Shown: positions 3,106-64,000 of the stretch, in pieces
Position numbering within the stretch: the first letter of the stretch is position 1
Layout of the letters: each line of letters starts with the position of its first letter
Source: Candidatus Saccharimonadota bacterium
Lineage (GTDB): Bacteria > Patescibacteriota > Saccharimonadia > Saccharimonadales > JAGQMS01
Length of the DNA: 64,000 bases
NCBI GenBank assembly: GCA_020428535.1
Contig: JAGQMS010000003.1
Location: 1-64,000 of the forward strand
Direction: 5' to 3'
The notes under the pieces: generated by a model
What the model was told of the DNA's origin: nothing
What the model saw: the letters and a program-made list of their open reading frames with translations, nothing else
Database searches by the model: none
Program-made: the position numbers and the translations under genes

Positions 3106-3534
3106 CTAGAGCTGTGTAGTGGTGCTAACTCTGTTTAATACGAAGCTCACGATCACTTGGGCTAGGGCGACAACAACAAGACCGATAACGGCGTAAAGAA
3201 TCATGTTCTTTGCAGCGCTGACTGCTGATGATTCACCACCACCGGTGATGTACTTCAACCCAGCTGAGATCAACATAAAGACTGAGATCAGACCAACAAT
3301 GATTTGAAATAGCTGAATTGCTAACTTGATGGTTTTGTTAACTTTTTCGTCAGCACCCGAAGTTGACTGACAATTTGTACCTGTTAGATCACCGCCAGCA
3401 CCACAGTTAATCGCTCCTGTCGACGTGTCGCTAGTTGTGCCAACAGCCATTGCTGCCATCGGAGCTACAACACCTGTAATAATGCCGGCACTAGCTAGAA
3501 TTCCCGCTAGAAATAGTCTTAGTTTTGCTTTCAT
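3106..3534 (-). CDS. T4SS pilin-like protein 6 (VirB2/TrbC type)
   Basis: The 142-residue protein has a signal peptide ending near AMAVG and a Cys-containing extracytoplasmic stretch. Two transmembrane helices follow (about residues 73-96 and 114-137), separated by a short loop with TGGGESSAVSAAKN. This two-helix layout, with a Gly-rich turn and a small helix of Ala/Lys, is that of VirB2-like T4SS pilins. It is the last of six such genes in a row and faces a terminator. Its last 20 residues are almost identical to those of the neighbouring gene, showing a recent duplication or conversion. A weak AAGGA lies upstream of the ATG. Confidence 0.82.
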   Translation of the reverse strand: MKAKLRLFLAGILASAGIITGVVAPMAAMAVGTTSDTSTGAINCGAGGDLTGTNCQSTSGADEKVNKTIKLAIQLFQIIVGLISVFMLISAGLKYITGGGESSAVSAAKNMILYAVIGLVVVALAQVIVSFVLNRVSTTTQL

Positions 3535-3597
3535 ATGATTTCTTTTTCCTTATTATTTGTTACTTTTTTTATACCAGTTTTAGGGTTAATAATCAAT

Positions 3598-3990
3598 CTA
3601 AAGTCCTGTTGTGGCACTAACTCTGTTTAATACGAAGCTGACTATCACTTGGGCTAGGGCGACAACAACTAACCCGATCGCGCCATAAAGTATGCGGTCT
3701 TTGGCTGTTTTGGTCTTAGCACCATCACCCGCTGAAGTCACGTAATTCAGCCCAGCCGTGATGAACATAAACACGGCAATAATTCCGACGATCATCTGGA
3801 ATATTTGAATTGCAAGCTTGATTACTTTTTGTACGGCATCGGTTCCGGTAGAGCAGTTAGAGGTTGTGCTTGTTGTAGCTACTCCGTCACAAACCGCATC
3901 TGTCGAGCTACCAGCCAAAACAGCAACTGGGGCAAGGCTAATACTAAATATCGCCATCATTGACATTAAAAGATATATTATTTTTTTCAT
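3598..3990 (-). CDS. T4SS pilin-like protein 5 (VirB2/TrbC type)
   Basis: The 130-residue protein has a signal peptide (MKKIIYLLMSMMAIFSISLAP, cleavage probably after VLAG), a short Cys-containing segment and two transmembrane helices joined by a TSAGDGAKTKTAKD loop. It is the closest paralogue of the downstream pilin: both end in VVVALAQVIVSFVLNRVS. A good Shine-Dalgarno (GAAGGAGC) precedes the ATG. It is transcribed with the other pilins on the minus strand. Confidence 0.82.
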   Translation of the reverse strand: MKKIIYLLMSMMAIFSISLAPVAVLAGSSTDAVCDGVATTSTTSNCSTGTDAVQKVIKLAIQIFQMIVGIIAVFMFITAGLNYVTSAGDGAKTKTAKDRILYGAIGLVVVALAQVIVSFVLNRVSATTGL

Positions 3991-4003
3991 GATGCTCCTT
4001 CGT

Positions 4004-4420
4004 TTAAAGCTTACTTAAGATAAATCTTACCAGAGTTCCGGCAACTACCGCTACTGCAACACCAATAGCGGAGTATAGAATTCCATTCCTGGCAGTCGCC
4101 GTCTTAGCTGGGTCTCCGCCAGACATGACGTAGCGCAGACCACTTAGAATTAACATAAATACGGCGATAATACCCGTAATCAGGCCGAAGATACCTGCTA
4201 CTTTAGTTGTGATTCCCGTGGGCCCAAAGATTGGATTTTCCGTTGACTTCAGATCAGTACAAACAGGGGAGTTAGCTGCGGTGCCATCACAACCACCAAC
4301 TTGATTTGCGGGGGTACTACTTGGTTGAAAATCTACTCCGCTACCCGCGAACACACCAATAGCTGGACTTAAAGTCAGGAAAATAATTAACGTAAAGAAA
4401 GTGATCGTTTTTCTGATCAT
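4004..4420 (-). CDS. T4SS pilin-like protein 4 (VirB2/TrbC type)
   Basis: The 138-residue protein has a signal peptide and an extracytoplasmic segment with two Cys residues. Two transmembrane helices are connected by YVMSGGDPAKTATARNGI. The GGDP-x-K-x-x-x-A pattern is the recurrent signature of this pilin set. Its ATG overlaps the stop of the upstream gene by 4 nt (ATGA), so the two are translationally coupled. Confidence 0.82.
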   Translation of the reverse strand: MIRKTITFFTLIIFLTLSPAIGVFAGSGVDFQPSSTPANQVGGCDGTAANSPVCTDLKSTENPIFGPTGITTKVAGIFGLITGIIAVFMLILSGLRYVMSGGDPAKTATARNGILYSAIGVAVAVVAGTLVRFILSKL

Positions 4421-4695
4421 AGCTTCGTACCCGCCACAAAGCCAACGATTGCGCTGGCACTAATCGCCACTACTATCCCGATCGCCGCATATAGAATCTG
4501 ATTCCTTGCCTCAGATGTTTTTTGCGGATCTCCTGAAGAGAGGGTGTACTTCATCCCCGCCCAAACCATGATGATAAGGCTGATCCCACCTAAAGTACCC
4601 ATTACGATATACATTATATTTTCAAAAAGATTCGCGTTGGTTTTTGGCAACGGATTTTGCAATGTAATTGTCGCTATCATATGAAGTAGGCTCAT
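4417..4695 (-). CDS. T4SS pilin-like protein 3 (VirB2/TrbC type, no clear signal peptide)
   Basis: At 92 residues it is the shortest of the six. Two transmembrane helices are joined by YTLSSGDPQKTSEARNQI, the same loop signature as its neighbours. The N-terminus (MSLLHMIATITLQNPLP) is only weakly hydrophobic and lacks the extracytoplasmic domain of the other pilins. It overlaps the genes on both sides by 4 nt, which supports the whole reading frame. Confidence 0.8.
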   Translation of the reverse strand: MSLLHMIATITLQNPLPKTNANLFENIMYIVMGTLGGISLIIMVWAGMKYTLSSGDPQKTSEARNQILYAAIGIVVAISASAIVGFVAGTKL

Positions 4696-5117
4696 CCTGT
4701 CAAACTCCTACCTAAAAACGCAACTAAAATTGTGGAGATTGAAGTAATTCCAACGCCAATTAGAGCATCAATAATACTTTGTCTGGCTTTCGCTGCTTCT
4801 TGTGGATTACCACGACTCAATACATAACTAAATCCTGCTTTTATTACAAATATAACCGCAACTATCCCTGCTACTCTAAGCAAAATGTCAACTGCCGCTA
4901 GAGCAACTTTCCATATGTCTCCGGGGAAATCAAAATTTGATATTTCACAATTATTGTTCGGATCTTTTTGAAGGTATTCATGCCAAGTTGGGATCAATTG
5001 CAAAAAACTTGAACCACCCCCAGCGCCACAACTAGCGGCAGATGCAATTGGTGTTGCAAAAACAGACATTACAATGACACTGCTAAATATCATCAGCATT
5101 TTTTTCATTCTGTTCAT
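4692..5117 (-). CDS. T4SS pilin-like protein 2 (VirB2/TrbC type)
   Basis: The protein has 141 residues from the ATG at 5115-5117. That start overlaps the upstream stop codon (TAATG), and GGGAGGTG lies just before it, so the 16-residue upstream extension is not part of the protein. A signal peptide (ending near ASA) is followed by a segment with two Cys residues and two transmembrane helices around YVLSRGNPQEAAKARQSI. The loop carries Arg and Asn where the sister proteins have Gly and Asp. Confidence 0.82.
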   Translation of the reverse strand: MNRMKKMLMIFSSVIVMSVFATPIASAASCGAGGGSSFLQLIPTWHEYLQKDPNNNCEISNFDFPGDIWKVALAAVDILLRVAGIVAVIFVIKAGFSYVLSRGNPQEAAKARQSIIDALIGVGITSISTILVAFLGRSLTG

Positions 5118-5515
5118 TAGAATACACCTCCCGGGATAAGCCATTGAATAAACGCATATAAACATGCATACATCAGGAATGCTATCAAAGCATCTTGGAT
5201 ACGCTTTTTTGATTTAGATGCCGTAGAAGGATCACCTTGAGCCGTAGAGTACTGGATACCTGCAAATATAATATTACCAACGATAGCGAGTGTCACGCCT
5301 CCGGAGACAAAATTAAATATAGTGTTTAGGAGCGCAACTATCCCACAATTGCCACTATTTAAATCTGACGTAGCGCAATTATAGTCCGTACTCTTTTCTG
5401 CTGTAGGGATACTGTTAGCCCCAAAATTGCTCACCGCCATAGCTGACGCCTTAAATGATACAGGAGCTATAAAAAGCAATAATAGAGTTAATAATGTTTG
5501 TATTATGTATTTCAT
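5117..5515 (-). CDS. T4SS pilin-like protein 1, first gene of the pilin operon
   Basis: The 132-residue protein has a signal peptide, an extracytoplasmic piece with two Cys residues and two transmembrane helices. The loop is YSTAQGDPSTASKSKKRI, again matching the pilin signature. It starts the six-gene minus-strand operon. A -10-like TATTCT ends 6 nt before the ATG, and an alternative TATAGT lies 11 nt before it. In VirB2/TrbC systems such proteins are inserted in the membrane and assembled into the pilus. Which of the six is the major subunit cannot be told from sequence. Confidence 0.82.
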   Translation of the reverse strand: MKYIIQTLLTLLLLFIAPVSFKASAMAVSNFGANSIPTAEKSTDYNCATSDLNSGNCGIVALLNTIFNFVSGGVTLAIVGNIIFAGIQYSTAQGDPSTASKSKKRIQDALIAFLMYACLYAFIQWLIPGGVF

Positions 5516-6120: not shown

Positions 6121-6163
6121 CCTAAATATAAGCTTTTGGACCAGGTTATGTTTGTATATACTT

Positions 6164-9100
6164 ATGAATAAGATGAAAAAAATGATGACGCGTGCAGCGC
6201 TATTCTGCCTCACAGCCATTACTATATCCGGCTTAAGTTTGCCGTTAATAGAAATATTTAGCGGCAAAGCACAGGCCGCCGCACCTGCATCATTGAATAT
6301 CGATGGTACGGAATGTAAATTAAGTATCGTTGAGATTCCTCAGTACGAACTCGCCATTGGAGGCATACATTTCCCCGAAGCACCCTCTACCGATATATTT
6401 GGCGTAGGAAAGGTGTACAGACCCTTAAACTGGTATTTTGATGGCCTGGCCAATGAGATAGGTGACTACAGCTCTGTTAAGAATAACGCCTCAATCGTAA
6501 ATGACTTGAATTCATTATCTAATCTTGCAAACAATACTAGTCAGCAACCAACTTCAAATAACGGAAGTATCGTTACAGTTTCTGAGATAAAGGCGGTAGC
6601 AATTTTATTTGACGCCGTACAGGCCGGAAATGGAGACCCTCAGAAAGCCTGCAGGAATGTTCCAAATGTTCTTTTTTCAAGACCTAGTGCCCCAAATCAG
6701 TTTATAGGCACAATAAAAGGCTATGGCGATCTTATAGTTGGAACACTCGACGCCACGGCCAAAAAAATTACATTTACAAATAGTGTAAGCGGAGGTACCG
6801 TCTACAATGTGGGGGGTGATAATGCGATCTTTTCCAGGCCCGAATTAAATGGAGTTCAACAAGTTGGTTTTTGCTCAGACTCTCCCACCGGTACCGCATA
6901 TTCCGCATGCATGACAGCATATGTAGTTGATTTTAATACAATCACTTACCGTGGTGAGACCTATAAGCTAAAAGAGTGGAAGGGCGACCAGTCCGTTAGG
7001 ATGGACTATGTACTTGACCCAACAACGTCAATTGCAAGGGGCAACTTGATATCATCTTGTTCGGCACTTCCTATGTTTAGAATCGACGGGGATAGTACTG
7101 ATAAATTAAAAGAACTTACCCTTGATGGTCGAACTGTATCTGGCCAACTAAAGGGTTTCGCCGATCAGCTATCGGCATTAAAAAACGAAACTGGTACTAC
7201 AAATATTACTTACTTGGATATCCTGCCGCCCTATTCAAGTTGTTTCCTTCAGCGTGAAAACGATTCGACACCAGTAGAATTACACAGCTTACAAAATTTT
7301 CTTAATATTTCAACTTTTTTCCAAAAAGACGGGGTTGCAATAATTAGACCTAATAATCCAGGAAACAATGAAAAGAATCTTTCGCAACAATTTACAGTAG
7401 ACCCCAATGATCCGCTTTTGTACATTATTGGCGAAGCAGATAAAAAAGCGGGCGATTGTTCTATAAGCAATGGTCCAATGAACATACGTTTTGAATCTGA
7501 CCCGATGCAAGAAACCGTAGAAGGAAAATACGTTCCCGCCTATTGGACTTTCCCTAACTACAGAGGAGACTGTGCTGCCCTTGGGGCGCCGATAATGGTT
7601 AAAATTGCGACCGTTAACTCATCAGATACTCTTGAACAGGCCATTGCTGACGGTGCCGGCTTGGGGGACACCGCCGCAACTGGAGACCAGGCACCTAAGT
7701 GTGAGGACATCGGAGGTCTTGCTTGGATACTCTGTAAGATACTGGATGGTATGGATGCCGTTGCTTCATACGCTGAAGATCAAATCAGCAGCTTTTTATT
7801 CGTTGATCCAAAAATGTTTACAAATGTTGACCCCATAAGCCCAAATGGCAAAAATGGAATTTATAACGCTTGGTCTACGTTCCGCTCTTTGTCGACGGTA
7901 ATCATTGTTATCATCGCCTTAATAATGATTTTTTCTGAAGCAATGGGTCAAGGTGTTTTTGACAATTATTCAGTTAAAAAATTACTGCCCAGACTTTTAA
8001 TTGCAGGGATCGCAATTCAACTTTCGTGGTTTATTATGACCCAGTTAGTTAATATATTTAATATCCTTGGTAACGGAATAGGCAACCTGTTAATAAATCC
8101 GTTCGGCCTAGAGGCGAGCAAGGGGATGAAGGAGCTCATTGCCGACAGGGGATATATTATCTCTGGCGCTCAAGGTACAATTCTTGGGCTTATGGCTGCC
8201 GGGGTAACGATTGCACTACTATTCTCGGCACTTGGGCTTGGAATTATGATTGTGGCTGCACTTGCCGTAGCACTTGCCACTCTAGTAATCAGAAACTTGT
8301 TGATCTACTTGGGCGTCGTATTCGCACCGGTTGCGTTAGCTTTATCTGTTTTGCCCGGAACTCAGAAAGCGTCAAAGTTTTGGTGGGAATCGTTCGAAAA
8401 GGCCTTAATGATGTATCCGCTGGTGATGGCGTTATTCGCTGCAGGCAAGATCATGGCATATCTAATTCTTCAAGCAGGTAATCCTGAAGAGGGCATAAAA
8501 AGTATCTACATTATCGCAGCTATCATAGCGTGGTATGCTCCACTATTTTTGTTCCCTAAGGCCCTACAAAGGGGCGGGCAAATTATGGGCAAAGTTGCTG
8601 GATTTGCAAATGACAAGAGCAAGGGCATATTTGACCGGGCCAATAAATGGAATCAAGGCAGGAGAGATAAAAGGAAAACGTTTAATAAACAACTTCGGCA
8701 AGAACGCAGAGTTGCGGATCTTAACTCAGATAATCCGATAAAAGCTGGCTGGGCAAGGAATAGAATGAAGGCGGCTCAAGGTGCTACAGGTGTTGGAATG
8801 TACGTAGGTAGGCACTCTGGAGCGAAAAGAGATCGAGCGTCAGGAAGCATACAGAGCGTGGCTATAGCTGCGCACAAAAAAGCAGTTGAAGAAGAGTCCG
8901 TTAAGTATGCGAGCTTCTCTTCTGGGGATCAAAAAGATGTACTAGTAAAGATTGCAAATGATGCAAACCAGTCACTGGCTACCCGCCAAGCAGCCACCGA
9001 ACGATTGATTCAACTTAAAGATACGTCGAGATTGCAGAATATAGCATCTGGGGGTGGTTACGATGTTCTTAAAAGGTCGTTGGATGGTGGAAAATATAGT

Positions 9101-9673
9101 GACGTAAAAGAATTTGCACCTCATCTTGTTAACGGTGGACCGCTAAATCCAAGCAACACTTCGTTTACGGGAGATGGTGGGGTAGCTTCAAATATCGCGT
9201 CAGTCGAAGCCACGTCTAAGTGGAGCACTCAAACTTGGCAGCTTGCTTTAAATAGCGGGAATCCATTTGTGAGTCAAAGAGCGGCACAGCTTAGGGGGGA
9301 TGCAAAATTATGGAATACGTTAGGTGGCGAAACACAGCAACTAATTGAGCAACACCTTTCATCATCACCTCCACCTACACCTCCTCCGCCTCCACCTACA
9401 CCATCAGATGTACGCCTGAAGCGATCAATTGAGTATATCGGTGACTTTGAGAATCTCAAGTTATATAAATATCGGTATATCTGGTCAGATACATATTATG
9501 TGGGTGTTATGGCGCAGGATCTTCTAGAAACCCACCCCGAAGCATTAACTATCGATAAATACGGTTACTACCACGTGGACTACTTAAGGCTAGGTATAAA
9601 GCTACAAACCTATGAAGAATGGCTGGAGAATCAAAAGAATGGGGCCGAGGTGGCAGAGGTCGCACAAAGCTAG
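6164..9673 (+). CDS. VirB6/TrbL-like T4SS channel protein with C-terminal Peptidase_S74 domain
   Basis: This very large protein (about 1169 residues from ATG 6164) has a signal peptide ending near AQA. An exported N-terminal region of about 500 residues follows, then a polytopic block at roughly residues 575-810 with six or more helices, as in VirB6/TrbL inner-membrane channel proteins. A basic cytosolic-type region (RRDKRKTFNKQLRQERR) and a helical stretch come next, then a Pro-rich linker (SPPPTPPPPPPTPS). The last 80 residues read SDVRLKRSIEYIG...VGVMAQDLLETHPEAL...VDYLRLG, the pattern of Peptidase_S74, the intramolecular chaperone of phage tail fibres. The Ser and Lys five residues apart match the self-cleavage dyad. 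The start codon is uncertain among four nearby ATGs (6164-6187). Confidence 0.75.
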   Translation: MNKMKKMMTRAALFCLTAITISGLSLPLIEIFSGKAQAAAPASLNIDGTECKLSIVEIPQYELAIGGIHFPEAPSTDIFGVGKVYRPLNWYFDGLANEIGDYSSVKNNASIVNDLNSLSNLANNTSQQPTSNNGSIVTVSEIKAVAILFDAVQAGNGDPQKACRNVPNVLFSRPSAPNQFIGTIKGYGDLIVGTLDATAKKITFTNSVSGGTVYNVGGDNAIFSRPELNGVQQVGFCSDSPTGTAYSACMTAYVVDFNTITYRGETYKLKEWKGDQSVRMDYVLDPTTSIARGNLISSCSALPMFRIDGDSTDKLKELTLDGRTVSGQLKGFADQLSALKNETGTTNITYLDILPPYSSCFLQRENDSTPVELHSLQNFLNISTFFQKDGVAIIRPNNPGNNEKNLSQQFTVDPNDPLLYIIGEADKKAGDCSISNGPMNIRFESDPMQETVEGKYVPAYWTFPNYRGDCAALGAPIMVKIATVNSSDTLEQAIADGAGLGDTAATGDQAPKCEDIGGLAWILCKILDGMDAVASYAEDQISSFLFVDPKMFTNVDPISPNGKNGIYNAWSTFRSLSTVIIVIIALIMIFSEAMGQGVFDNYSVKKLLPRLLIAGIAIQLSWFIMTQLVNIFNILGNGIGNLLINPFGLEASKGMKELIADRGYIISGAQGTILGLMAAGVTIALLFSALGLGIMIVAALAVALATLVIRNLLIYLGVVFAPVALALSVLPGTQKASKFWWESFEKALMMYPLVMALFAAGKIMAYLILQAGNPEEGIKSIYIIAAIIAWYAPLFLFPKALQRGGQIMGKVAGFANDKSKGIFDRANKWNQGRRDKRKTFNKQLRQERRVADLNSDNPIKAGWARNRMKAAQGATGVGMYVGRHSGAKRDRASGSIQSVAIAAHKKAVEEESVKYASFSSGDQKDVLVKIANDANQSLATRQAATERLIQLKDTSRLQNIASGGGYDVLKRSLDGGKYSDVKEFAPHLVNGGPLNPSNTSFTGDGGVASNIASVEATSKWSTQTWQLALNSGNPFVSQRAAQLRGDAKLWNTLGGETQQLIEQHLSSSPPPTPPPPPPTPSDVRLKRSIEYIGDFENLKLYKYRYIWSDTYYVGVMAQDLLETHPEALTIDKYGYYHVDYLRLGIKLQTYEEWLENQKNGAEVAEVAQS

Positions 9674-9725: not shown

Positions 9726-10865
9726 ATGTCAGAATATAAAGTATTACAAGATATCGAGGGCGAAGACCATATTATTGGTTGGCTGACCCCCAGGCAAACT
9801 ATCTACGCTGCGATTGTGGTTGTTTCGTTGATACTGGCATATGTTATGGGTAGGTTAAATTTTCTATTGGCTGTACCATGGATCATCCCAATTGGTTTCT
9901 TCGGCTTTTTGGCGGCACCGCTTGGCAAGGATCAACCGAATGATGTGTGGGCGGCGGCACAGATTCGCTTTTACTTCAAAAGCCGGAAACGCCTATGGGA
10001 TCAGTCGGGTATGGAGGATTTAGTAAAGATCACAGCACCCAAAAAAGTTGAAAAAATATATACCGATGGTCTTGATCAAACACAAGTTCGGAGCAGGTTG
10101 CAAGCACTTTCAAGCACCATAGATAGTCGTGGATGGGCGATTAAAGGTGCGGCTTTGAGTATGCCTGTTATGAACAACCCGTACGGCGACAATGCCGATG
10201 ACAGGCTACTAGAATCCAACGCACTCCCTCAGGAGGTGCCGACATCAGACATCACTGAAGCGGATGATATTCTCGACACCGACAATGCCATGGCTCAGCG
10301 TCTTGAAGAGCAAATAAAGATCCAGGAGCAAAAGCGCATGGATCAAGTTAAGCAACGTATCGCTAGCACCCAAACTCAGCCAGCTAGCCAGCCACAAGCT
10401 CAGAACACTCCTCAAGATTTCTATTTTATGCAACAGCCTGCACAGACCGGACCAGTTCAGAGCCAAGAACCACCTGTTCAGTTAGCGACGTTTAGCTCGC
10501 AAATAGTTGCCCCAGGCGCTCAACCCAGTGAAGCCTCTACAAATATCCCCGCCGAACAAAGTTCAACAGTTTCTCAAGTTGATGAACAGGCACTGCTAGA
10601 AAAGATCCGAAAAGAGAGAGAGGCTACTTCACAGATGAGCCAAAGCCACATGAGAGTCATTAAAACACCACAGCAACTAGCCGAAGAGCAGGCTATGCAA
10701 GAGAAACAAAGAAAAGAAGCCGAACAAAAGACTGCCCAAGCTACCGCACCAGATGCTATACTTAAGCAGTTATCTCAGTCAGACTTAAAGGTGTCCACCA
10801 TCAGTTCAGTCGCAAAGAATGCTGAAAAGAAAGATGATGGAGAAGTGGTAATATCGCTGCACTGA
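9726..10865 (+). CDS. PrgI family T4SS protein
   Basis: The 379-residue protein has the PrgI arrangement. A short N-terminus (residues 1-22, ending WLTPRQ) precedes two transmembrane helices (about 25-42 and 46-65), then a basic segment with FYFKSRKRLWDQSG. The rest (residues 90-379) is a long, Gln/Pro-rich cytosolic tail probably disordered. PrgI is the small inner-membrane partner of VirB4 in Gram-positive and CPR T4SSs; classical members have only about 120 residues, so the tail is an extension. A Shine-Dalgarno AGAGG lies upstream. Confidence 0.85.
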   Translation: MSEYKVLQDIEGEDHIIGWLTPRQTIYAAIVVVSLILAYVMGRLNFLLAVPWIIPIGFFGFLAAPLGKDQPNDVWAAAQIRFYFKSRKRLWDQSGMEDLVKITAPKKVEKIYTDGLDQTQVRSRLQALSSTIDSRGWAIKGAALSMPVMNNPYGDNADDRLLESNALPQEVPTSDITEADDILDTDNAMAQRLEEQIKIQEQKRMDQVKQRIASTQTQPASQPQAQNTPQDFYFMQQPAQTGPVQSQEPPVQLATFSSQIVAPGAQPSEASTNIPAEQSSTVSQVDEQALLEKIRKEREATSQMSQSHMRVIKTPQQLAEEQAMQEKQRKEAEQKTAQATAPDAILKQLSQSDLKVSTISSVAKNAEKKDDGEVVISLH

Positions 10866-10924: not shown

Positions 10925-11767
10925 ATGAACCCAAACATCCAACAACCATCCATGAATCAAGTACCGGGAGCAACCGTAGGACCTGGAATACCCGGTATGC
11001 CGATGCAACCTGGTCAACAGGGGCCTGTTGTACAACCGATAAAATCTAACCCAAATAGTACCCAAAACACCCTGCTAATTAGCGAGATCAGGGATGGAAT
11101 AGTCATAATGAATGATGGTAGTTTCCGAGCAGTGGTTATGTGCCGTAGCATTAACTTTGACCTCATGAGCAATCAAGAGAGAGAAGGTGTGGAATACTCA
11201 TTTCAGGGCTTTTTGAACTCTTTGTACTTTCCGATTCAAATATTCATCCGGTCTCAAAAGATTGATATCAGGCCCTATATTGATAAATTAGACAAGATTC
11301 GATCTGAACATGACAACATGTTGCTAGCGTACCTAATGGAAGATTACATCGACTTTATTTCAAATGTCGCCCAACAAACAAATATTATGGATAAGAAATT
11401 CTACGTAGTTGTACCGTATTTTCCGGTTGTTGGTGCCGACAACATTAAGGAAGTTTCTAAGGGGCTTCTTTCGAGTTTCTTCGAGAAAAAGCAAAAAACC
11501 GTTGTCATTAATGAAGACGATCTTGAAAAAGCCAAGACCGAGCTCCGAAATCGGGTCCAAACAATCATGGCTGGCCTGCAACAGTGCGGAGTGCAAAGCT
11601 TGCCTCTTGATACCCAGGAACTTATTGAACTTTATTATGATGCCTATAACCCTGACACTGCTACACGTCAACAACTCAAGAATTTTAACGATCTTACCGC
11701 GCCTGTGGTAACCAAGGGTCAAGGATTTGCCCAAAACAGCAATCTAGACAGGGAGACGCCAGCATGA
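10925..11767 (+). CDS. VirB4 N-terminal-domain-like T4SS protein
   Basis: The 280-residue protein has no transmembrane helix. After a Gly/Pro/Gln-rich lead (residues 1-45) comes LLISEIRDGIVIMNDGSFRAVV. The following domain resembles the N-terminal substrate or membrane-docking domain of VirB4/TraC ATPases, including FFVVVPYFP-like (KFYVVVPYFP) and Q-x-GVQ-type strands, but there is no Walker motif. It probably pairs with the ATPase encoded 37 nt downstream, so the VirB4 function may be split over two genes. GAGGTG precedes the ATG. Confidence 0.65.
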   Translation: MNPNIQQPSMNQVPGATVGPGIPGMPMQPGQQGPVVQPIKSNPNSTQNTLLISEIRDGIVIMNDGSFRAVVMCRSINFDLMSNQEREGVEYSFQGFLNSLYFPIQIFIRSQKIDIRPYIDKLDKIRSEHDNMLLAYLMEDYIDFISNVAQQTNIMDKKFYVVVPYFPVVGADNIKEVSKGLLSSFFEKKQKTVVINEDDLEKAKTELRNRVQTIMAGLQQCGVQSLPLDTQELIELYYDAYNPDTATRQQLKNFNDLTAPVVTKGQGFAQNSNLDRETPA

Positions 11768-11804: not shown

Positions 11805-13712
11805 ATGGCATTTGGCAAAAAAAAGGAACAGCCGATAACTGACCCTGTTTTGCTTGCTCAGATGCAACAGCAACAGGAGCAAATGCAGGTTGAAGAAGCC
11901 TTCAGAAAAAGCATTACTGCACTTCGAGATTTCATAGCACCTAGCTCTCTTGAACTACAGAGCACTCACTTTCAGCTCGGTACGCGTTATGCACGAAGCT
12001 ACTACGTATTTGGGTACCCACGCCAGATCTATACAGGTTGGCTGAGTGGCATGATTAACCTTGATGAGATAATCGATATTTCTATGTTTGTGTACCCAAT
12101 CGAAAGCCAGGTGGTTCTCGAAAACCTAAAGAAAAAGGTAACTCAGCTCGAGGCAGACCTCATGACGAATGCCGAAAAAGGACGTGTTCGCGATCCTCAA
12201 AAACAGGCTCAAATCATAGACGCCGAAGAAATGCGAGACAAGCTACAGGTGGGCGAAGAACGCTTCTTCAGATTCTGCTTCTATTTCACAGTCTATGCCC
12301 ATTCAATGGATGAGCTTGAGTTTGTAGCACATAAAGTCGAATCGATGCTTGGCCAACAGCTTGTTTACAGCAAGCCAGCTAGCGCTCAACAAGAACAGGG
12401 CCTCAACAGCACAATCCCACAATGCGTTGACCAGCTCCAGATCCGTCGAAACATGAATACTGGAGCGCTCTCAACAGCCTTCCCATTCACCAGCGCCGAT
12501 CTCACAGATGACAAGGGTATTCTTTACGGTATTAATATGCATAACTCTGGGTTGGTTATTTTTGATCGCTTTAGCCTAGAGAATGCAAACTCTGTGGTGT
12601 TCGCTAAGTCCGGTGCTGGAAAAAGCTTTACGGTGAAGCTTGAGGCACTCAGAAGCATGATGATGGGTATTGAGGTGTTTATTATCGACCCCGAGAACGA
12701 ATATCAGAGGATGTGCGAAGCAGTCGGCGGGGCATACGTGAAACTGTCTTTAAATTCGCCAACTAGACTGAATCCCTTCGACATCCCAACCGTAGTTGAT
12801 GCAGACGAAGCTGACAATGCCCTGAGAAGCAACTTGATAACCCTTCATGGTTTATTGCGCCTGATGATGGGGGGAGCCTCAGCTTCAGCTCAAGGTGCGC
12901 AAAATATCCTAGCCCTAACACCTGTCGAGGAAGGTGATCTTGATGCCGCATTGATCGAAACCTACGCTCGAGCTGGGATTACCAACGACCCCTTAACTCA
13001 TAAGTCCCCGCCACCAACTATATCTGATCTTTATGACACGCTTTTGCATATGGGCGGCACCGGTCCACAACTTGCTCAACGTCTCCGCAAATATACTAGC
13101 GGAACTTTTGCAGGGATATTCTCTCAGCAAAGCAACATTGATATCAACAATCAGATGGTGGTCTTCAATGTGCGCGATCTTGAAGACGAACTCCGACCAG
13201 TCGCTATGTATATCGTTTTGAACTACATCTGGAACAAGACTAAAGCAGACCAACGAAAAAGAATATTGCTAGTAGATGAAGCATGGCAATTAATGAAGTA
13301 TGAGGATAGCGCCAACTTTATGTTCTCTCTAGCAAAACGTGCCAGAAAGTACAGCCTGGGCATTACCACTATCACTCAGGATGTCGAAGATATGATGAGC
13401 TCTAGAATGGGTCGAGCGATTGTGTCGAACGCCTCAATGCAAGTTCTCTTGAAACAATCTACATCAGCGGTTGATGTACTTTCTGACGTGTTCAAGCTCA
13501 CTGGCGAAGAGAAAAAGCGTCTCAGCCAATTCCCGGTTGGTCAAGGATTATTTTTTGCAGGTCAAAATCATGTTCACATTCAGATTTTGGCTAGCCCAAC
13601 GGAGACCGAGCTGATAACCACCAACCCCGCGCAAGTAGCACAGATTGCCCAAGGCGAGCTCGAGGGTCAAGGCACAATTGACCTAAACAATCGCATCTCT
13701 CCGGGGATGTAA
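11805..13712 (+). CDS. virB4: VirB4-family T4SS ATPase
   Basis: The 635-residue cytosolic ATPase powers T4SS assembly and transport. The N-terminal domain (residues 1-230) is followed by the RecA-like domain. Walker A lies at about residues 265-275 (AKSGAGKSFTVK), an IDPENEY motif shortly after, and Walker B at about 485-495 (ILLVDEAWQLM). Downstream GITTITQDVEDMM and a Q-rich switch match VirB4/TraE ATPases. GGAGG lies 9 nt before the ATG. It sits between the VirB4-N-like and M15-type genes in one operon. No VirD4-type coupling ATPase is seen in the window. Confidence 0.93.
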   Translation: MAFGKKKEQPITDPVLLAQMQQQQEQMQVEEAFRKSITALRDFIAPSSLELQSTHFQLGTRYARSYYVFGYPRQIYTGWLSGMINLDEIIDISMFVYPIESQVVLENLKKKVTQLEADLMTNAEKGRVRDPQKQAQIIDAEEMRDKLQVGEERFFRFCFYFTVYAHSMDELEFVAHKVESMLGQQLVYSKPASAQQEQGLNSTIPQCVDQLQIRRNMNTGALSTAFPFTSADLTDDKGILYGINMHNSGLVIFDRFSLENANSVVFAKSGAGKSFTVKLEALRSMMMGIEVFIIDPENEYQRMCEAVGGAYVKLSLNSPTRLNPFDIPTVVDADEADNALRSNLITLHGLLRLMMGGASASAQGAQNILALTPVEEGDLDAALIETYARAGITNDPLTHKSPPPTISDLYDTLLHMGGTGPQLAQRLRKYTSGTFAGIFSQQSNIDINNQMVVFNVRDLEDELRPVAMYIVLNYIWNKTKADQRKRILLVDEAWQLMKYEDSANFMFSLAKRARKYSLGITTITQDVEDMMSSRMGRAIVSNASMQVLLKQSTSAVDVLSDVFKLTGEEKKRLSQFPVGQGLFFAGQNHVHIQILASPTETELITTNPAQVAQIAQGELEGQGTIDLNNRISPGM

Positions 13713-17002: not shown

Positions 17003-18985
17003 ATGAAAAAGAATTATTCGAAAATTATAACTAAATACCTATTTACATTTACTCTATTAATCTCCCAATTAATAGGTAGTGGTAGGGCGCTAGCGTACAT
17101 TGGAAGCGGACAGAACTATACCTTTTATATCCCCGGCTTAAGTAATTGCAGTACAACAACCACCTCCCAAGTGGTTGGTGGCAATAAACTCTTCTATATA
17201 GGCGACTCACTTACATACCACATGGTAAAAGGCAGTTCGAAACCGGAGAATTATGAAACTGCAAGTGGATTCTTGTTAGAGAAATCTAAGGCCGCAGGCT
17301 ATGATGTAGACACGACTATCCCGGCAGTTGGGGGTACCGACAGTACATCAGTTGCGCCTCGCATAATTGGTCCGTCAGTTGAGGCTCAAGGAGGAGTAAA
17401 TGTTGCCAATAGCATCAAGCATATCGCAGAACACACTCAAGACTATGCAAATGCAAATATTATTGTGATCGGGTTAGGTACAAACCTAGAGCAGCTTGAT
17501 TTTCGGACAGAGATAAACGAGCTTATTTCGACCATTCGTTCAAACAATCCAACCGCTGCGATTTATTGGGTAGATACGTACTTCACAGGTGGGCGAAGTA
17601 AAACATATCAAGACGTTAATGCGGTAATTGAATCTGCCGCCTCGGCAAATAATTTCACGGTAATACATTACTCAACCGCTGCGATTGCCGACCCCGGAAT
17701 TGCACCAACCGCCGGTGGTGATGGAGTCCATGTAGACAACGGTCCAGCGAGACAGAAAAAAGCCGATTGGCTGATATCCCAGCTCCCAAAACCAGGAGAA
17801 TTTTCGGGAAATATTAGCGCCGCACCTTCTGGGGCCTACGACCCAACATCACTAAATTATCCACCGTTCCCCGACGAGGCGGCCATGGCAAAAAGCATTG
17901 AGGACTATATACGAAATAGTGTTTCGGACTCGCCATGGTTTGGAATTCCAAATCTCGGCTCTTGGCTTCTTGCTGAGACAAAAGCTCGAAACGTCAACCC
18001 CATGATTGTGATGGTCTCTGGAAAGCAAGAGAACAATTTTGGAACGGCAGGTAATAACCCGAGAGCGAACAATAATTATTTTGGCATGAAGGGTGATGGA
18101 GGATATATACACTTCGATAGCCCTATCGAAGGAATGACAGCCTTCCTAGATCAACTAAAGCGAAATATCGTCGATAAATCACATGCAAACTACGTAGACG
18201 TAACTACGATGTACGAATATTTCTCTGTGCACCAAACAGGCGGTATACACTACCCCGGGGATGGTCTAAACTTGGGAGACCCTCAGATGCCTGACGTGAG
18301 AGTGTCGTGGGATACACAGTACAACCCAGGCACCTACTGGAAGACCGCAGCAAGTGTAATATCGGCAATTACAGGGATTAATGTTTCGCCTGACGTTCCA
18401 CCGAGGGGCAGTGGGGCATATTATTCAGGATTTGGTAACTGTGCTGGCTCCAACGCAAGTACTGGAGATGCTTCGAAATATATACCTGATTGTGGAGCAA
18501 ATAATGGCAACGCGGCCATAGCCTGTACAGCGATTAATCAACTTAGTGGTATTGAATATAGTCTTCCTCAAAGAGCACTACCGACAGAACCTAACCCCAA
18601 GTTCTTAGACTGTAGCGCTCTGGTCGGTATGGCCATATACCGCACCTTTGGTCTGGACCTCAACGGTTTGTGTTCAGTCGGTTACCTTTCAAATAGTAAT
18701 TTTGAAAGGATTGAAGACATGCACACCATTCAGCCTGGGGATCTTATCGGAAAAGGTAGTGCCTGTACCGGAGCAGGTGGTGATGGCCACATTGCAATAG
18801 TTGTTAGCTATGACCCAACAACTCAGAAATTGATAACCGTGGAGACTTCGAGCACTAGATATCTCTCGGGTGTTAGGGGTGTACCAGGAAGTTACAATGT
18901 CGGCTTAGAGATTGACGGTAAGGGTAGTTACCAATGGGCCGTCAGATATGTTGGACAAAAAACTTTACAGCCAGGAGCACTCTAA
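17003..18985 (+). CDS. Three-domain secreted wall hydrolase: SGNH + glucosaminidase + NlpC/P60
   Basis: The 660-residue exported protein has a signal peptide ending around residue 30 (GRALA). First comes an SGNH/GDSL hydrolase domain: GDSL near residue 68, GLGTN near 155, and DGVH with the catalytic His near 238. Next is a domain with VSGKQENNFG near 340, like the LysM-associated Flg/Auto-type glucosaminidases whose Glu is catalytic. Last comes an NlpC/P60-like papain fold with LDCSALVG (Cys near 533) and GHIAIV (His near 595). Together they would deacetylate or esterify, cut glycan strands and cut peptides. It is a likely VirB1/LtrG-type functional equivalent of the T4SS. Confidence 0.78.
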   Translation: MKKNYSKIITKYLFTFTLLISQLIGSGRALAYIGSGQNYTFYIPGLSNCSTTTTSQVVGGNKLFYIGDSLTYHMVKGSSKPENYETASGFLLEKSKAAGYDVDTTIPAVGGTDSTSVAPRIIGPSVEAQGGVNVANSIKHIAEHTQDYANANIIVIGLGTNLEQLDFRTEINELISTIRSNNPTAAIYWVDTYFTGGRSKTYQDVNAVIESAASANNFTVIHYSTAAIADPGIAPTAGGDGVHVDNGPARQKKADWLISQLPKPGEFSGNISAAPSGAYDPTSLNYPPFPDEAAMAKSIEDYIRNSVSDSPWFGIPNLGSWLLAETKARNVNPMIVMVSGKQENNFGTAGNNPRANNNYFGMKGDGGYIHFDSPIEGMTAFLDQLKRNIVDKSHANYVDVTTMYEYFSVHQTGGIHYPGDGLNLGDPQMPDVRVSWDTQYNPGTYWKTAASVISAITGINVSPDVPPRGSGAYYSGFGNCAGSNASTGDASKYIPDCGANNGNAAIACTAINQLSGIEYSLPQRALPTEPNPKFLDCSALVGMAIYRTFGLDLNGLCSVGYLSNSNFERIEDMHTIQPGDLIGKGSACTGAGGDGHIAIVVSYDPTTQKLITVETSSTRYLSGVRGVPGSYNVGLEIDGKGSYQWAVRYVGQKTLQPGAL

Positions 18986-62712: not shown

Positions 62713-64000
62713 ATCAAAGAGCAAAACAGAAAAATCATACTCATTGCGCTGATAGTGTTTACTATCCTCCCTTTTATTTGGATCGTAAAACACCCGAGCA
62801 GTTGGTCATTAGCATCTGAAAATATACCAGCAATTGTCTCGTATATCTCATCCGTGATCGGATTTAGCGGTATTATGTCCTTGCTTTGGATGTATATTTT
62901 GGGCACGCGAACAGTTGCTGGCTTATATTTCCGTGATCTAGTTTGGACCCTAAAAGTTCATCGTTGGCTGGGGACATATGGAATTGTAGCGGTATTCTTG
63001 CATCCATTTCTTATGGCATATGTCTATGCCGAAAACGTTTTTACATATTGGCTTACCCCAAGACTAGGATCGCAGTTTGAACAGCACATTACTTATGGTA
63101 GGCTAGCTTTTATTCTGTTAGTTACGATATGGGTTACTTCAGCAATTGTTCGAAGTAAGATAAAATATCGACCCTGGAAGTATATCCACTATCTGACTTA
63201 TATAATCTTGCCGTTAAGCATCTTGCACATTCATGAAACCGGAGTGTCGATGCAACTGCCATTTGTACAGTTTTATTTTTACGTCACGATTTTCATCTAT
63301 ATTGTAATCACGGTTTTGAGATTTAGATATTTTCTGGGATTTGGCAAGACAATATTTGATATTGCAGAGAATTCCCAAGTGGCATCGAATATATTTATGC
63401 TGACTCTTCATCAGCCTTCAAAAAGGCTCAGTATACGACCAGGTCAATATGTCTACGTGCAGAGACATTTGTTGAGTGAAGAGCATCCATTCTCGGTTGC
63501 TGATTATGACCCAGATACGGGAAATATCAGGCTGGTGTATAAAGTTTTCGGTTCTTTTACTGAAAAGCTTTCAGCTCTCAAAAAAGGTGAAGTAATACTC
63601 GTAGATGGGCCGTATGGAACCTTTACGGAACAGATAGTTATGGATCAAAACAAACCTACGATCTTTGTTGCTGGCGGGATTGGAATTACGCCGTTTATCA
63701 AACATATCGAGCGCCGAACTAGTTTTAAAAATACTTGGCTGTTTTATTCAGTCCCCGACAGAAACTCCTCAATTTACAACGATGTATTTGTCAGGCTTTT
63801 AGGAGATAAATACGTAAGAATTTTAAGTAGAGAAACGCAACCTCATCAGCAAAATGATCGCATAGGTCATCTGGACGCGAAAACAATACACGAATACGCA
63901 AAAAGCTTTGATGAATATCTATATTTCATTTGCGGTCCTAAAGCCATGATCAACGATTTGAGGTCACAATTATTAGAGTCTGGCGTCAGCTTTGTACAAA
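62713..64000 (+). CDS. Ferric-reductase-like flavocytochrome, cut by the window end
   Basis: The frame is open from 62656 to the right edge. It carries two to six transmembrane helices with heme-type His (KVHRWLGTYGIVAVFLHPF and YIHYLTYIILPLSILHIHE). A ferredoxin-reductase-type flavin/NAD domain follows: RPGQYVYVQRHL, HPFSVADY, DGPYGTFTEQ, FVAGGIGITPFIKHI and YFICGPKAMI. It would pass electrons from NAD(P)H across the membrane. No ATG, GTG or TTG occurs in frame before the first helix. The best candidate start is an ATC at 62713, with AGGA 6 nt before it; GTG 62755 would cut the first helix. The start is therefore uncertain. Confidence 0.8.
   Translation, partial: MKEQNRKIILIALIVFTILPFIWIVKHPSSWSLASENIPAIVSYISSVIGFSGIMSLLWMYILGTRTVAGLYFRDLVWTLKVHRWLGTYGIVAVFLHPFLMAYVYAENVFTYWLTPRLGSQFEQHITYGRLAFILLVTIWVTSAIVRSKIKYRPWKYIHYLTYIILPLSILHIHETGVSMQLPFVQFYFYVTIFIYIVITVLRFRYFLGFGKTIFDIAENSQVASNIFMLTLHQPSKRLSIRPGQYVYVQRHLLSEEHPFSVADYDPDTGNIRLVYKVFGSFTEKLSALKKGEVILVDGPYGTFTEQIVMDQNKPTIFVAGGIGITPFIKHIERRTSFKNTWLFYSVPDRNSSIYNDVFVRLLGDKYVRILSRETQPHQQNDRIGHLDAKTIHEYAKSFDEYLYFICGPKAMINDLRSQLLESGVSFVQ

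Follow-up and report, generated by a model that had tools for sequence, protein, structure and literature searches.

A compact Peptidase_S74 domain at the C-terminus of a VirB6/TrbL-like type IV secretion protein in Saccharimonadia

Peptidase_S74 (S74/ICA) domains stand at the C-termini of phage spike and fibre proteins such as endosialidase endoNF, the GA-1 neck appendage (3gud) and the S16 long tail fibre (6f45), where the core contains a Ser and a Lys five residues apart. The domain is also found on a cellular membrane protein, MyRF/MrfA (7dc3; PMC8326128, PMC3742443), which retains the coiled coil and is cut to free a transcription factor. MyRF is cleaved between Pro and Ser, and its S587A and K592A variants stay uncleaved; the S587A protein was crystallised, indicating that the Ser is unnecessary for folding. 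Trimerisation of MyRF is driven mainly by its coiled coil, and coiled-coil mutants are not cleaved (PMC8326128). A compact form of S74, starting with SDxRLK and ending 16-49 residues after the AQ motif, is carried by phage virion structural and DNA-ejection proteins (phrog_6121, phrog_4287 with phrog_598) and by DUF4815 proteins. Among type IV secretion systems (T4SSs), VirB6 is pentameric in the solved or modelled cases, and the function of extended VirB6 domains has been stated as unknown (PMC12857230). In A. tumefaciens and B. suis, VirB6 has its C-terminus in the cytosol (PMC6536674). VirB2 arrays have been described for the class Saccharimonadia, and a cultured Saccharibacterium cannot grow as an epibiont without its T4SS (PMC12102498). 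The open-access papers that we searched contained no description of S74 on an extended VirB6 or a Patescibacteria T4SS, and no relevant paper connecting S74 or an intramolecular chaperone with VirB6 or a T4SS; the main text of the Patescibacteria T4SS paper (PMC12102498) makes no mention of S74.

We analysed a 64,000-nucleotide stretch of a Candidatus Saccharimonadota genome, hereafter the window, in which an initial annotation had proposed that an S74 domain is fused to a VirB6/TrbL-like T4SS protein behind a Pro-rich linker. The features of the locus are as follows.

3106-5515, minus strand: array of small membrane pilin-like (VirB2-like) genes, divergent from virB6; a homologous array lies at the equivalent place in S74-bearing loci
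6152-9673, plus strand: VirB6/TrbL-like T4SS protein with a C-terminal compact S74 domain; 1173 aa from a TTG start, with an inner ATG at 6164
6152-7867, plus strand: signal peptide and large N-terminal extracellular region, residues 1-572; hydrophobic stretch 15-37, then a long hydrophilic region; predicted topology
7868-8560, plus strand: membrane block of about seven transmembrane (TM) segments, residues 573-803; from a hydropathy scan, the exact TM number being estimated from charge distribution
8561-9367, plus strand: predicted cytoplasmic tail, residues 804-1072; basic stretch after the last TM segment
9368-9403, plus strand: Pro-rich linker PPPTPPPPPPTP, residues 1073-1084; read directly from the sequence
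9404-9670, plus strand: compact Peptidase_S74 domain, residues 1085-1173; profile, PHROG and Foldseek matches and an AF2 model
9404-9406, plus strand: codon of Ser1085, predicted nucleophile; aligns with MyRF S587 and endoNF S911 (PMC8326128)
9419-9421, plus strand: codon of Lys1090, predicted general base of the dyad; aligns with MyRF K592 and endoNF K916
9726-10865, plus strand: PrgI/VirB3-like gene adjoining virB6 (PF12666, 5.2e-8)
10925-11767, plus strand: T4SS gene with weak TraC_F_IV similarity; kept in those S74-bearing T4SS loci for which flanking sequence was available
11805-13712, plus strand: VirB4 ATPase (PF19044, 6.2e-30; NF045971 above its cut-off)

The window protein itself gave no Pfam TrbL match, and two of its BLASTP homologues gave weak PF04610 TrbL matches just under the cut-off. 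Its identity as VirB6 comes from BLASTP similarity to S74-bearing VirB6 proteins of other Saccharimonadia, from HMM comparison and from its position in the locus; homology, a polytopic membrane block and PrgI/VirB3 and VirB4 neighbours were all found. The gene order around the S74-bearing gene matches that of the window in several other genomes of the class. A large hydrophilic extension of VirB6 together with PrgI and VirB4 neighbours is shared with the described extended VirB6 proteins (PMC12857230) and Patescibacteria T4SSs (PMC12102498). Farther along the window, a T4SS-linked protein (17003-18985) showed a GDSL-lipase-like match that fell slightly short of the cut-off, as well as weak similarity to glucosaminidase and NlpC/P60.

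PF13884 (Peptidase_S74) matched residues 1085-1131 with 25.1 bits when the last 110 aa were scanned alone (cut-off 22), and the whole 1173-aa protein scored 20.3 bits, just under the cut-off. The same profile gave 26 bits at 9404-9544 in a search of the genome to which the window belongs. The closest PHROG match was phrog_6121, a virion structural protein (8e-13). With a compact-S74 profile of 29 members, from which the VirB6 rows and the FNR-like row had been left out, the window domain scored 97.7 bits and the next window ORF 2.1; the rows of this profile had been collected in a scan that started from VirB6-type domains, and fully independent support comes from the PHROG and Pfam matches. 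The best of 5000 shuffles reached 7.0 bits, which rules out chance similarity. A profile of 38 relatives retrieved exactly four PDB chains at E<10, all of them S74/ICA (3gud, 6f45, 8jov and 7dc3); single-protein phmmer against the PDB returned chance matches only. Assembly artefact and contamination were also ruled out, because several independent genomes carry the fusion in the same kind of locus. Judged by these similarities, the VirB6/TrbL-like protein truly carries an S74 domain, at residues 1085-1173. The domain, its linker and its attachment to a VirB6 protein were thus placed correctly in the initial annotation, as was the Ser-Lys pair at residues 1085 and 1090. Another contig of the same genome encodes a second S74, of the ordinary kind, which scored 40 bits in a repetitive fibre- or adhesin-like protein (L001; G000:C2:727-3885).

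Ser1085 and Lys1090 lie five residues apart at the very start of the domain. Ser, Asp and Lys are invariant in 38 diverse compact S74 domains. Among 124 complete S74 domains, short and long, Lys was present in all 124 and Ser in 123, with more variation at Asp, Arg and Leu; the seed pattern of this collection was built on the GVMAQD motif and left the dyad out, and its confirmation by tblastn favours conserved ends. All inspected compact domains in correct register contained the dyad motif, and two rows failed solely from a shifted start. Similarity to S74 and conservation of the dyad, on which the initial annotation had staked its proposal, were both found. The conservation of Ser and Lys argues for retained cleavage in VirB6 S74, and by analogy with MyRF the cut would be expected between Pro1084 and Ser1085, although conservation of SDxRLK could be partly structural. 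The VirB6 gene of G210 (L053:8700-9000, minus strand; identical to L062) has a TGA exactly between the SD and RLK codons of S74, with the remaining domain open; this is either a recent nonsense change or a sequencing error, the coverage being 3.7.

The window S74 extends 51 residues beyond the AQ motif; the range for compact S74 is 26-66 in cells and 16-49 in viruses. Profile-profile comparison aligned 70 core columns of compact and long-type S74 (E 2e-21), and the alignment stops where the long-type helix begins. The AF2 monomer of the window S74 ends in a helix of 9 residues and reached a pLDDT of 90.7 and a pTM of 0.80, a confidence that does not make the monomer the working state. For a long-type S74 used as control, a 45-residue C-terminal helix was predicted and the core was poorly predicted. 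Foldseek matched the window model to phage proteins annotated as intramolecular chaperone auto-processing domain, with an rmsd of about 0.9 A for the best of them, the matched structures being themselves predicted; against the PDB nothing significant was found (best E 0.47). On the evidence of profiles and model, the window S74 is a compact subtype without the C-terminal trimerising coiled coil. Upstream of the domain there is no beta-helical or trimeric fibre, only the Pro-rich linker on a tail with a low-complexity end. This tail is predicted to be cytoplasmic because a basic stretch follows the last TM segment (positive-inside rule), and S74 would therefore not be displayed. Unlike S74 in phage spikes and fibres, the VirB6 domain thus lacks both a coiled coil and a preceding trimeric beta fold to be chaperoned, and is carried by a membrane secretion protein. 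MyRF shares with it the cellular membrane protein, the Pro-Ser site and the dyad; in contrast to the transcription factor that is freed from MyRF, VirB6 would shed a small C-terminal piece.

The nearest phage homologues of the window S74 are virion structural, DNA-ejection and DUF4815 proteins, which carry compact S74 at their ends, more than tail fibres. The initial annotation had regarded the domain as of tail-fibre type; its phage homology is borne out, but the link to tail fibres is weaker than to these other virion proteins. Compact phage carriers differ from VirB6 in being virion proteins rather than T4SS components. Bacterial carriers of compact S74 are mutually unrelated, including FNR-like flavoproteins, caspase-domain, peptidoglycan-binding and small exported proteins. 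In two Saccharibacteria (L072:741-2147 and L071), compact S74 ends an FNR/ferric-reductase-type flavoprotein, in which a long linker of Pro-rich repeats precedes it; the neighbouring genes encode ApbE and a ferric-reductase-like membrane protein. A ferric-reductase/FNR-like gene akin to the FNR part of L072 lies in the window at 62755-64000 (continuing in L059:2756-4027), has no S74 and is followed by ApbE-like and FMN-binding-like genes, as recognised by eye. In a Xanthobacteraceae/Hyphomicrobiales locus (L093:7955-10243), a bacterial caspase-domain protein (PF00656) has an Ala/Ser-rich stretch and a C-terminal compact S74, and similar ends were seen in L086, L089 and L097. A 133-residue protein (L068:9890-10285) consists of a RiPP-precursor-like N-terminus (TYQKPTLDKRSKL, by eye) with compact S74 directly after it. 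Long coiled-coil S74 occurs in Gastranaerophilales/Melainabacteria (L104, L108, L110, L111 and similar loci) on pseudopilin-like proteins with an N-terminal FSLIEALVIL-type motif, again recognised by eye.

We sampled 393 genomes of the class, 353 of them with VirB4 at E <= 1e-100. Compact S74 on VirB6 was found in six of the 353: the window's own genome (G000), G132, G146, G173 (two copies), G210 and G035. A GTDB scan added two fusions, L074 and L084, which are counted here irrespective of T4SS neighbours. The search of other Saccharibacteria VirB6 proteins that the initial annotation had suggested thus recovered the same fusion in seven genomes besides the window's, in the same T4SS locus where checked. 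Since more than 98% of VirB4-bearing class genomes are without the fusion, a general role of S74 as a T4SS part is ruled out. From 60 loci fetched upstream of VirB4 we obtained 56 VirB6 proteins, none with S74, and many of these end in similar Pro/Gly-rich tails. The VirB6 of G101, from the genus of G146, matches that of G146 through RNRRRDWGSNAL; the former stops after its Gly/Pro tail and the latter goes on with SDSRLK. No S74 relic was found downstream of the stop codon in S74-less virB6 loci. Elsewhere in the phylum (380 genomes), the best 30 of 42 matches contained no VirB6-S74 besides the window's; the others among these 30 were fibre-like proteins, mostly with long coiled-coil S74, two of them without the motif in the scan. 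Taken with the literature, VirB6-S74 is a new architecture made from known parts.

On a VirB6 tree of 64 rows, the presence of S74 changes eight times, at least six of these changes being forced by well-supported branches, and it clusters no more than shuffled labels do. The simpler reading of this tree would be repeated gain of S74 by VirB6 in several independent captures, change counts being unable to separate gain from loss. The tree of the S74 domain itself is too short to decide between a single and multiple origins of the domain. For the two copies of G173, the one gene pair from which selection was estimated, dN/dS was 0.10 in S74, 0.04 in the membrane block and 0.08 in the tail. The S74 and linker of this pair have a lower dS than the rest of the gene, which suggests a possible recent exchange by recombination between the copies.

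The reading that we favour, at about even odds, is that S74 is a self-removing C-terminal cap, which cuts between Pro1084 and Ser1085 and leaves a VirB6 tail like that of S74-less relatives. Its basis is the homology, placement and dyad conservation of the domain, its scattered occurrence with several switches across the VirB6 tree and the confident monomer model; from these we infer the cutting, its timing and the purpose of the cap. After synthesis, the compact phage-type domain would fold, largely alone, on the tip of the disordered, flexible cytoplasmic tail. Ser1085, activated by Lys1090, would then attack the Pro1084-Ser1085 bond and the 89-residue domain would be released, so that mature VirB6 would have a Pro-rich C-terminus, like the VirB6s of related species that lack S74. 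As a cap or timer, the domain could occupy the tail while VirB6 folds or its subunits come together; cleavage might take place in the monomer or be favoured by close packing in the VirB6 ring. S74 could come and go because, under this proposal, the cleaved product has a C-terminus of the S74-less kind. Against it stands the need of MyRF for a coiled coil that is missing here, by which analogy compact S74 might be inactive. A wider form of the proposal, which we put forward only tentatively, is that compact S74 is in general a monomeric self-excising cap, with a mechanism unlike that of the trimeric phage chaperone, and was captured several times independently from a phage-like pool by Saccharibacteria VirB6 genes to time T4SS maturation.

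The initial annotation had suggested instead that S74 trimerises the channel or a displayed fibre and then cuts itself off, as an assembly chaperone. Such is the function of the family in phages and MyRF, the dyad is conserved, and the oligomeric VirB6 ring could itself bring S74 domains together. We nevertheless consider this unlikely and found the suggestion unsupported, given that the compact members have no coiled coil, that neither a beta-helical stalk nor another fibre precedes the domain, that the linker is flexible (up to (SP)n in relatives), that the tail is predicted to be cytoplasmic, that VirB6 rings are pentameric (PMC12857230) and that nearly all genomes of the class do without S74 on VirB6. 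Equally doubtful is a domain that no longer cleaves itself and remains on the tail tip as a cytoplasmic module to which a coupling factor or substrate would dock. The confidently predicted stand-alone fold, its location on the cytoplasmic VirB4 side and the missing coiled coil, which MyRF cleavage needs (PMC8326128), would suit such a module, yet Ser and Lys are invariant in compact S74 even though Ser is unnecessary for MyRF folding (PMC8326128), and the same module occurs on proteins with nothing in common. Least probable of all, in our estimate, is a near-neutral hitchhiker repeatedly copied onto disordered C-termini and tolerated through self-removal, with no role specific to VirB6: the eight state changes with clustering as in shuffled labels, the unrelated partner proteins and the absence of relics in S74-less loci agree with it, but the single pair tested shows purifying selection on S74, no mobility gene or mechanism was found, and recurrence at one site would require an unknown advantage.

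Our data indicate that many cellular proteins other than fibres carry S74 in a compact modular form, which raises the question of whether S74 can cut without trimerising. If the self-removing cap that we favour is true, a self-cleaving domain on VirB6 would offer a clean biochemical handle on T4SS maturation.
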